NCBI RefSeq assembly: GCF_024699075.1
Contig: NZ_JAILQF010000254.1
Span: 1 to 24,866 of the forward strand
Source: Butyrivibrio sp.
GTDB lineage: Bacteria > Bacillota_A > Clostridia > Lachnospirales > Lachnospiraceae
Direction: 5' to 3'
Length of the DNA stretch: 24,866 nucleotides
Every line of letters starts with the position of its first letter. Positions within the stretch are counted from its first letter, which is position 1. Of this stretch, positions 7,139 through 23,675 are shown piece after piece. Made by a program: the position numbers and the translations under genes. The notes under the pieces are model-generated. The model was not told the DNA's origin and did not search any database. It saw only the letters and a program-made list of their open reading frames with translations.

Positions 7139-7167
7139 TTAACAGTCTGATAGAGATTTGCTATAAT
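7139..7167 (+). promoter_or_regulatory. Sigma-A-type promoter for the Mur ligase gene
   Basis: TTAACA (7139-7144), a 17-base spacer and a perfect TATAAT (7162-7167). Predicted transcription start is near 7174, giving a leader of about 215 nt that includes the structured repeat before the ATG at 7390. Confidence 0.65.
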
Positions 7168-7288
7168 AAGGCCTGGTACACTTTGAAAGTGCACGAATTT
7201 TTCAACTTCAGGAAATCTCAGATTCTTGAATTGGCAATTCAAAACGCGGTACACGAAATAATTTATCTATATATAGTAGGAGAAGAAT

Positions 7289-7381
7289 AAGTTTGAAAAT
7301 AAAATTTTCAAACTTCACAAAGTGGTGTCGCGAGCTCCACCACTTCAACCATTAGTCACTCGTTTCACTCGCGACATGAGG
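7289..7381 (+). repeat. Structured two-hairpin repeat, copy A (in the Mur ligase leader)
   Basis: Hairpin 1 is a perfect 12-bp stem at 7289-7300/7304-7315 with loop AAA. Hairpin 2 is a perfect 8-bp stem AAGTGGTG/CACCACTT at 7320-7327/7338-7345, and its loop carries TCGCGAG. A 35-nt tail (7347-7381) is identical to the tail of copy B at 23581-23615. GTCGCGAG at 7327-7334 is perfectly complementary to CTCGCGAC at 7368-7375 in the tail, which would allow a pseudoknot or an alternative fold. The tail runs directly into the GAGGAG ribosome binding site (7378-7383) of the Mur ligase gene, so in this copy the element forms the end of the 5' leader. Confidence 0.85.
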
Positions 7382-7389
7382 AGAAAAAT

Positions 7390-8706
7390 ATGAATATATA
7401 TATTTCAGGAATATCTGGAACCGGAATGGGACCACTTGCTTTAATGGCCAAAAAAGCCGGAATAAATGTTTATGGTTCCGACAGGAGTCTTGGTGCAATA
7501 GCAAATGAGCTTGAAAAAGCAGGAATTGAGTATCAGGTTGGTCCTCAGGATGGCACCTATTTTTCTGAAAAAATAGATTCAGTTGGAATAGACTGGTTCA
7601 TTTACACTTCAGCTCTTCCTCAGGATCACCCTGAACTTGTTATGGCAAGAGACAGAGGAATCAAGGTATCAAAGCGAGATGAACTTATAGCTAAGCTGGT
7701 AAAAGATCTTGACCTTAAAATGGTAGCTGTAGCAGGAACACATGGTAAAACAACTACTACATCAATGCTGGTCTGGGCAATAGACAAGCTTACAGATGAG
7801 AATAATAACAGGCTCCTGCCCTCTTCATATCTTGTAGGAACCACTCTTTCTTTTGTTCCATCCGGATCCTACAAAGAAGGGGACAAGTTCTTTATTTATG
7901 AAGCGGATGAGTATGATAGGAATTTCCTTAATTTCCATCCATGGGTGAGCTTAATAACCTATGTGTCCTACGATCACCCTGATATTTATAAGACAAGAGA
8001 AGACTATGAGCAGGCTTTCATACAGTTTGAGGATCAGTCTGAGAAGGTAATCTTTGCAACTAAAGAAGCTTCCATCCATGGCGCTGACGCCCTTAAAGCT
8101 AAGGGCAAAGATGTGCAGATCATCCCAGGGATCGATCAGCGTATCAATATTTCGGGAAGTCCAAGAAGAGAAGATGCAACCACAGCATTTTTTGCCATAA
8201 AAGAAATGCTTAGTTTCTGCGGCAAAGAGGTTTCCGATGAAAGAATCCTCTGCGTTTTAAACGAATTCCCAGGAGTAGGACGTAGATTCGAGCGTATATG
8301 TGAAGGCTTTTATTCAGACTATGCCCACCACCCGGAGGAAGTAAAAGCTACAATAGATATTGCCAAAGAAGAAGCCAAGAAGCTTTCCAAAAAGGGCGTT
8401 GTAGTCATTTATCAGCCCCATCAGAACACCCGCCAGCACGAAGTAAGGCACCTCTATAAGGATGCTTTCGACGAAGCGGACAAGATATACTGGCTTCCTA
8501 CTTATCTTACTAGAGAAGATGAAAGCCTTCCTGTTATAACACCTGAAGAGTTTATAGCTGATATAAGTGCAAAGGATAAGGCATTTGTAGCTGAACTTGA
8601 TGATGACCTTGCGGAAAAAATAAAGGCAGACCACAGCGATGGGTATCTGATTATACTATTAACTGCAGGACCTGCGGATAAATGGTTCAGAAACGTAGTA
8701 AAATAA
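7390..8706 (+). CDS. Mur ligase of the MurC/Mpl family (UDP-N-acetylmuramate--L-alanine ligase-like)
   Basis: 438 residues. ATP-dependent ligases of this family join L-Ala (MurC) or a recycled tripeptide (Mpl) to UDP-N-acetylmuramate in the cytosol. N-terminal Rossmann-like domain: ISGISGTGMGPLALMAKKAG (5-24) and GSD (29-31). Central ATPase domain: P-loop GTHGKTTTT (116-124), YEADEYDRNFL (170-180) and YDHPDIY (194-200). C-terminal domain: PGVGRRFERI (294-303), YSDYAHHPEEV (308-318), YQPHQNTR (341-348) and TAGPADKW (425-432). The QPH-x-x-TR and final G-x-x-D motifs are MurC-like, while the 'GxMGxLA' opening and 'EADEYD' are closer to Mpl. I therefore leave the substrate open; L-alanine is the default. 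The ATG follows GAGGAG by 6 bases, contributed by the repeat. No wall genes adjoin it, and the next gene downstream is dnaD-like. Confidence 0.8.
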   Translation: MNIYISGISGTGMGPLALMAKKAGINVYGSDRSLGAIANELEKAGIEYQVGPQDGTYFSEKIDSVGIDWFIYTSALPQDHPELVMARDRGIKVSKRDELIAKLVKDLDLKMVAVAGTHGKTTTTSMLVWAIDKLTDENNNRLLPSSYLVGTTLSFVPSGSYKEGDKFFIYEADEYDRNFLNFHPWVSLITYVSYDHPDIYKTREDYEQAFIQFEDQSEKVIFATKEASIHGADALKAKGKDVQIIPGIDQRINISGSPRREDATTAFFAIKEMLSFCGKEVSDERILCVLNEFPGVGRRFERICEGFYSDYAHHPEEVKATIDIAKEEAKKLSKKGVVVIYQPHQNTRQHEVRHLYKDAFDEADKIYWLPTYLTREDESLPVITPEEFIADISAKDKAFVAELDDDLAEKIKADHSDGYLIILLTAGPADKWFRNVVK

Positions 8707-23545: not shown

Positions 23546-23580
23546 ATGTAAAAAAACGCTCTCGTGGTTTTCATTTTTAA

Positions 23581-23675
23581 CCTCATGTCGCGAGTGAAAC
23601 GAGTGACTAATGGTTCGATATTGGTGGAGCTCGCGACACCAATTCGGGTTTGAAAGTGGAACACTTTCAAACTTT
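23581..23675 (-). repeat. Structured two-hairpin repeat, copy B (after the PFOR terminator)
   Basis: This copy is inverted relative to copy A at 7289-7381. In minus orientation, hairpin 1 is GTTTGAAAGTG/CACTTTCAAAC (11 bp perfect, 3-base loop; 23648-23672). Hairpin 2 is ATTGGTG/CACCAAT (7 bp; 23620-23643) with the same ten-base loop as copy A. The tail at 23581-23615 is identical over 35 nt. The stems differ from copy A by compensatory pairs, and the loop GTCGCGAG again matches CTCGCGAC in the tail. It lies between the convergent terminators of mecA and the oxidoreductase gene, so no gene follows it closely. Confidence 0.85.

Follow-up and report, generated by a model that had tools for sequence, protein, structure and literature searches.

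The MurC-like Mur ligase gene in the window (the whole stretch of DNA that was analysed, 24,866 nucleotides) follows a leader that ends in two perfect hairpins and a tail running into the ribosome-binding site (RBS), and this locus raises the question of whether the leader is an RNA element that could switch access to the start codon or a mobile repeat captured by the gene. Both possibilities had been named in the original prediction, and the two hairpins, an 8-nt loop-tail complementarity and GAGGAG before the gene were all found as it described them, with correct coordinates for this copy (copy 1, 7289..7381, + strand). The reading favoured here, with confidence somewhat above even, is that the element is a dispersed mobile repeat of Lachnospiraceae, about 95 bp long, which installs a structured Shine-Dalgarno (SD) sequence between a gene's RBS and its start codon; there is good support for its conserved structure, for its dispersal and for its placement at gene starts.

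The limits of copy 1 were set by the empty sites of other copies, and by the family form, AAGTTTG...CATGAGGTT, its end would lie at 7383. Hairpin H1 (7289..7315, +) folds as a 12-bp stem with an AAA loop, its arms being AAGTTTGAAAAT (7289-7300) and ATTTTCAAACTT (7304-7315), and hairpin H2 (7320..7345, +) as an 8-bp stem of AAGTGGTG (7320-7327) and CACCACTT (7338-7345) closing the loop TCGCGAGCTC (7328-7337); both stems covary. A third hairpin, H3 (7347..7383, +), recognised from covariation and folding and missed in the original prediction, contains the SD (GAGGAG, 7378..7383, +; family form GAGGTT), which was assigned from sequence and the position census. In copy 1 its pairs are AACC (7347-7350) with GG.., UUA (7352-7354) with UGA (7377-7379) and GUC (7355-7357) with GAC (7373-7375); the outer helix is weak there, AACC standing opposite GGAG with two of four pairs formed, and the computed minimum-energy fold gives the tail a pairing other than H3. 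Loop-tail pairing analyses delimit the two strands of a possible pseudoknot or kissing interaction, GTCGCGAG in the loop (7327..7334, +) and CTCGCGAC in the tail (7368..7375, +), which are exact complements, with the small correction that G7327 doubles as the last base of the H2 stem, so that the pseudoknot of copy 1 has seven pairs, with an eighth available when that stem pair is open. At GUC:GAC the tail strand shares bases with the 3' arm of H3. The 121-nt fold of copy 1 has an energy of -25.7 kcal/mol; shuffled sequences give -17.4 (z -2.7), with 2 of 200 doing as well.

The gene led by copy 1 (7390..8706, +, ATG at 7390) was identified by Pfam and by a 99% identical orthologue in an uncultured Butyrivibrio (G001), the nearest to the window among the genomes searched, with 43% of sampled 31-mers in common; its NCBIfam murC match is below the cut-off of that model. 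The element-free G001 orthologue has one SD (GAGGAGAAAATCATC-ATG), and comparison with it indicates that the SD-like AGTAGGAGAAGAA just 5' of the element in the window (7275..7287, +) is probably the former host SD of the Mur-ligase gene. A likely promoter, TTAACA and TATAAT separated by 17 nt (7139..7167, +), comes from a consensus scan only (3 found against 1.6 in shuffles) and has both hexamers conserved in G001; the element would therefore fall in the transcribed leader. Between the likely -10 and the element, about 110 nt (7168-7275) are missing from the orthologous G001 leader; this segment apparently holds two further small inverted repeats and is perhaps a second, decayed insertion.

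A second copy in the window (23573..23674, - strand) has a TTGGTG variant of H2. A 26-nt piece of the tail is identical at both copies (0.00 expected by chance), and H2 recurs in the window with one mismatch. Copy 2 is followed by an ATG and a 20-codon frame running into a hairpin, no larger gene being found downstream of it. It is an orphan lying downstream of a pyruvate:ferredoxin oxidoreductase-like frame, itself below the family cut-off.

Besides these two, there are about 30 copies in G001 and about 75 in G067, which by inference is B. fibrisolvens D1. A covariance model (R1) built from 13 copies gave 44 matches in G001 (E ≤ 10) and 88 in G067 (E ≤ 1), counts that include opposite-strand matches to palindromes. 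The census comprises 110 of 119 model matches (37 + 82), nine having been removed by hand, namely eight opposite-strand palindrome matches and one partial array unit (L146 1139-1241). A scan of the genus with stricter filters matched 2 of 49 genomes, G001 and G067; a broader model matched 3 of 200 and added G119 and G276, both of other genera; and a third model matched 6 of 397, belonging to six genera (G001, G119, G122, G207, G276 and G410). Support is weak in three further Lachnospiraceae genera, with one match in G122 (E 8e-5), two in G207 (E 7e-5 and 4e-4) and three in G410 (best E 8e-8). L210, L213, L212 and L215 directly precede open reading frames (ORFs) of at least 218 codons, and L209 and L211 (the only G122 match) precede none. 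Two G276 copies (L207 and L208) are of a variant with an apparent extra hairpin (AATCGAATTTATTTGATT) between H2 and H3. An exact tail pattern is present in one bin of an uncultured Butyrivibrio, CAMVNV, on six contigs, and on one contig of Natrinema (L035, Natrinema zhouii), where the exact 21-nt match is probably due to chance.

Searches of other collections agree with the original prediction that no named RNA class has this layout. The whole window gave no match to Rfam 15 at the gathering cut-off, and the region 7250-7420 gave nine matches at E ≤ 10, all of them well short of gathering scores, the best with 17.9 bits against a gathering value of 52.7. A nucleotide search of 60 genomes besides G001 returned, as its sole hit, a 25-nt H1-like match in G051, the element itself being absent. 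No match was found in the phage records searched, nor in viral contigs with one strict pattern, and the plasmid search found one record with the element, pNP243 of B. fibrisolvens D1. No published description of such an element was found in searches that largely excluded subscription journals.

Covariation among the copies, on which the original prediction hung together with a non-random position relative to genes, was found throughout the stems. In the G067 alignment 20 of 21 stem pairs changed on both sides (205 cells against 47.7 when shuffled; 0 of 500 shuffles), and the several-genus alignment A7 contains 286 both-side cells against 82.6 in shuffles (0 of 500); sliding the 3' partners abolishes most of the signal in both. 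A first MAFFT alignment of 13 copies agrees, with both-side change at six pairs (0 of 500 shuffles). These shuffle controls ignore the relatedness of the copies. A7 consists of 88 chosen loci (64 of 75 from G067, three from G001, the window, 10 of 11 from G119, four from G276 and six from the other three genera), and its percentages are somewhat flattering since the 11 omitted G067 loci are mostly damaged or low-scoring; moreover, the alignments were fitted to the structure of H1, H2 and inner H3, so the paired percentages lean towards that structure. One pair of the H3 inner stem (A opposite C) is non-standard in 53 of 90 rows. The H1, H2 and H3 stems are maintained by compensatory changes.

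A conserved AACC in front of ATTAG complements the GGTT with which the element ends, and the minimum-energy folds of a standard copy (L074) and of window copy 2 contain AACC-A-UUA-GUC ... GAC-A-UGA-GGUU; this AACC...GGUU form is absent from the minimum-energy folds of window copy 1 and G410 L212. The outer-helix columns are unpaired in the models, so the alignment there is not biased towards an AACC:GGTT helix, and its letters co-vary as AACC/GGTT (58 of 93 rows), AGCC/GGCT (G207), CACC/GGTG (G276 L190 and G122), TGCC/GGCA (G410 L209) and AATC/GATT (G067 L119), although several G067 rows break the helix. Pairing is present in 91.7% of cells, 12 cells are changed on both sides (0 of 500 shuffles) and three of the four pairs show such change (26 of 500 shuffles as high). 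At the level of the family, this points to an SD that is likely covered by H3; in window copy 1, GGTT has become GGAG, with a stronger SD and a weaker outer helix. An excess of G-U over A-C mismatches (55 vs 23 in H1, H2 and the outer helix) was considered as proof of selection on the sense RNA, an argument that was dropped because the outer-helix count also reflects selection on the SD side, and the H3 inner stem shows the opposite (31 vs 67).

The predicted pairing between the H2 loop and the tail stood in part: many copies keep it, some with compensation, but its signal is marginal in G067 alone and several copies have lost it. Within G067, 10 of 500 shuffles were as high for percent paired, 9 of 500 for the covariation score and 0 of 500 for both-side cells. 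Across genera, 38 both-side cells were counted against 13.8 (0 of 500 shuffles), with weaker results for the number of pairs showing both-side change (31 of 500) and for further pair types (219 of 500); this signal is stronger partly because one G119 type is counted many times. When duplex energies were compared with those of shuffled loops for 84 distinct loop/tail combinations from 111 copies, 14 of 51 non-standard combinations had p<0.05, where 2-3 were expected, the G119 rows (p 0.03-0.26) being mostly not significant singly. Compensated pairs occur in L145/L135 (TTGCAAG or TCGCAAG with CTTGCGG), L210 (GCTGCGA with TCGCAGC) and L089. Pairing is lost in a clear minority (L127, L114, L057, L134, L213 and others), and L127, L114, L130 and L213 have little or none of it, yet keep a downstream ORF and the H3 stem. 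Among 77 distinct loop/H3 combinations of A7, the 5-bp H3 stem is complete in 4 of the 34 that have a loop-tail run of at least 7 and in 23 of the 43 that do not (Fisher p 1.3e-4), an association that is gone at a run of at least 6 (p 0.45) and comes from a post hoc test ignoring relatedness. The loop-tail pairing is thus probably real but optional, sharing a strand with H3. The outer H3 helix and the loop-tail pairing both show covariation. A translational switch RNA is possible because the tail strand is common to the loop-tail pairing and the SD-containing hairpin, and the loop-tail pairing may either free the SD or, as a kissing complex, lock it.

The position of the copies is far from random with respect to genes. 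In the census of 110, an ORF start codon lies at most 60 nt from the anchor in 86 copies, and at 10-13 nt in 61 of these. The anchor test covered the 83 census copies with [AT]GAGG, the remaining ones having none in range: in 63 of them the base preceding GAGG is followed by an ORF start at 10-13 nt, compared with 38 of 526 for the other [AT]GAGG occurrences that these loci have on that strand and with 188 of 4150 for positions picked at random. Among the listed G119 copies, the ATG of an ORF of at least 62 codons lies 11-14 nt after the anchor in 11 of 12, the twelfth being the first unit of an array; in G276, only two of four copies precede a long ORF at the normal distance (11 nt). By the NCBI annotation of pNP243, genes start directly after its two strongest copies. 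Among the exceptions are relics, the first units of arrays, copies at contig ends, and orphans, of which window copy 2 is one. The structured repeat does form the end of the Mur-ligase leader as predicted; it is not specific to Mur ligases, and copies precede many different reading frames.

Several copies also touch the frames upstream of them. At L027 1630-1395 (-), also L145, there is an array of three tails and two H1-H2 units, in which the CATTAG of the first tail is the stop codon of an upstream 91-codon frame, and in L016, L019 and L028 a TGA adjoining H1 seems to supply the upstream stop codon. A conserved leader peptide ending at CATTAG was rejected on reading the copies by eye, with no script, because the frame of that TAG differs between the two H2 variants.

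Element-free orthologous places bear out the suggestion of a mobile repeat captured as a leader, in that the dispersed repeat has been inserted. Neither G020 nor the 99%-identical Mur-ligase locus of G001 has copy 1, and the place in G001 orthologous to that of copy 2 is empty too. Of 77 G067 copies, 28 were queried, and 17 have a matching gene start in G001 or G020 (21 loci), although some of these starts (76-79% identity) may be paralogues; a model search of the 21 loci and the two Mur-ligase loci gave one weak match (L167, E 0.8). The original site could be restored exactly in L085/L168 (GTTTTGAGGAAT|AAATATGG), which is clean, and in L077/L167 (GCATGAGGTTT|AAATATGG), the other empty sites being too diverged to fix the junction. 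At these exact sites AAGTTTG...CATGAGGTT sits between GAGGAAT or GAGGTTT and AAATATGG without duplication, and the junction can shift by two bases. The weak match in L167 (1366-1479, 18.2 bits) lies directly before the start codon, CATGAGGT making up most of it; this otherwise empty L077 orthologue may hold the relic of an older copy, in which case insertion may have gone behind the SD of that copy. Two sites show insertion without target duplication, one of them clean and the other with a possible relic.

A general target-site duplication was rejected on these two pairs of loci, with one reservation: the similarity of 5' and 3' flanks is slightly in excess (4 of 5000 permutations as high; 66 copies), most clearly in L082 and window copy 1, which may leave room for target duplication or flank exchange in some copies. 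The ends AAGTTTG.. and ..CATGAGGTT are not inverted repeats and the two exact sites have no duplication, features that do not match those of a MITE. In L057/L114, orthologous-looking copies of G001 and G067, the gene start differs, and in the G001 copy the sequence that follows the 3' SD repeats what stands at the 5' flank and H1 (GAGGTTATGCGATTGAAAA), a pattern that suggests an exchange between the two flanks.

The 5' flanks support insertion behind an SD as the probable mode of entry. An SD-like 5-mer lies at most 14 nt 5' of 38 of 94 non-array copies in G001, G067 and the window, where a control stretch gives 9 of 94, and in all 106 copies with a sufficiently long flank taken together the starts of SD-like motifs cluster 6-8 nt upstream of the element. 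In the listed G119 copies the 5-mer is on the 5' side in 11 of 12 and GAGGTT directly before the element in 7 of 12, and in G276 SD-like sequence was found on the 5' side in none of four copies. The left target is thus SD-like, yet its letters and spacing vary. Arrays (L145, L146, L147 and L090) are consistent with an element that inserts repeatedly behind its own SD, and sites that by their flanks are common to G001 and G067 (such as L056/L083 and L055/L091) indicate that some insertions are older.

Four other accounts were weighed against these data. That unconnected hairpins arose by chance upstream of one gene is scarcely credible: AT-rich intergenic DNA folds easily and nothing further speaks for it, and it is already refuted by copy number and covariation, to which the 26-nt exact tail, the recurrence of H2 and the gene-start position are added. 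A dedicated cis-regulatory leader RNA, riboswitch-like or protein-binding, serving a regulon with the pseudoknot as its switch, would account for the strong covariation, the SD within the structure and a loop-tail pairing that competes with the SD hairpin, and pseudoknots near the RBS govern translation in repZ (PMC8383071) and tisB (PMC7708055), as the portions of these papers cited here describe. However, the downstream genes, judged by reading their sequences, look unrelated, the genus scan matched only two genomes, element-free orthologous gene starts are common, and arrays, SD-less relics and orphan copies exist, so this account is considered quite improbable. A more ambitious form of the mobile-repeat reading, for which the evidence allows tentative and less than even confidence, is a mobile RBS cassette that would home to the gap between SD and start codon and replace the native RBS by a hairpin-embedded one whose opening the H2-loop pseudoknot would govern, so that unrelated genes would come under a common control of translation based on RNA structure.

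The remaining account, a non-autonomous element of IS200/IS605 or REP type, would treat the hairpins as single-stranded DNA ends recognised in trans by a Y1 (HUH) transposase and AACC:GGTT as a pairing of guide with cleavage site, the RNA fold having no translational role. It gains from the two exact cases without target duplication, the subterminal hairpins, the resemblance of the host target (GAGG..T) to the element's right end (GAGGTT), and the presence of Y1 transposases (PF01797) in G001 and G067, where 11 matches were found. However, neither window copy had a BLAST hit at E ≤ 1 in any of the 11 Y1 loci, and two Y1 element families accounting for 7 of the 11 loci end in ..TTCAC and have neither these hairpins nor this right end, so Y1 transposons as parent are unsupported by the ends examined. 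These families (L156, L158 and L163, about 1.8 kb, right end ..GTTCAC; L157, L162, L164 and L165, about 2.0 kb, ..CTTCAC) were found in G067, one of the seven copies being in G001. Guide-like sequence is also missing between the left junction and H1, the right end is changed in G207 and G276 (GGCT and GGTG) with left flanks that do not match, and a mechanism of this kind alone leaves the insertion at SDs and the conserved SD spacing unexplained; we regard it as unlikely. No transposase partner was found among the Y1 elements whose ends were examined, nor any autonomous copy in G067, where the 48 listed H2-plus-tail matches are all at or within known copies; they were compared by eye with the list of known copies, and 40 of 67 first-look candidates were scored.

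On the favoured reading, the mobile repeat inserts between SD and start codon; its own 3' end, CATGAGGTT, is a new SD at the normal distance from the start, so that the gene keeps an RBS. It is the folded sense strand that would matter: in the mRNA, H3 (AACC-A-UUA-GUC ... GAC-A-UGA-GGUU) would cover the SD, and the H2 loop could pair instead with the 3' arm of H3, making access to the SD depend on the pairing formed. During spread, an enzyme acting in trans probably works on the folded single strand, be it DNA or RNA. We view the element as mainly selfish, able to spread at little cost because it replaces the SD that it displaces, and regulation of individual genes as secondary; to judge from position and fold, the element may set the translation strength of the downstream gene.

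Short interspersed repeats are common in bacteria. Those derived from IS200/IS605, the PATEs and REP elements, are palindromic and non-autonomous, with subterminal hairpins and no target duplication; the present element resembles them in its palindromes, its subterminal hairpins and its two exact sites without duplication, and differs in that no transposase with matching ends was seen among those examined, the target is SD-like and the SD spacing is kept. The BOX, RUP and SPRITE repeats of pneumococcus are described, in the part of the source cited, as short, structured, high-copy, intergenic and presumed parasitic, and BOX as modular and able to give its neighbour a stop codon (PMC3049150). 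The present element shares their short length, structure, high copy number, intergenic location and presumed parasitism. In contrast to BOX and RUP, for which that part of the source reports terminal inverted repeats, target duplications and over-representation between convergent genes (PMC3049150), it sits in the gap between SD and start, has exact cases without duplication and carries the SD of the next gene. In the IncI-alpha repZ leader, a pseudoknot upstream of the RBS is required for translation, in what the cited sections present as plasmid copy-number control of one gene by an antisense RNA, unlike the dispersed element described here (PMC8383071). The tisB mRNA likewise needs a leader pseudoknot for translation, with a sequestered RBS and a standby site, but that pseudoknot is placed by the cited sections near the 5' end, far from the RBS, of a single E. 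coli toxin mRNA that is no repeat (PMC7708055).

If the favoured reading is true, a repeat that lands between RBS and start codon, carries its own RBS and has an RNA-like fold kept in several genera would be a direct link between mobile DNA and the initiation of translation. In this family one leader exists in roughly a hundred natural variants in front of different genes, and element-free orthologous starts are available as well, which makes its effect on expression, the mechanism of its insertion and its age directly testable.
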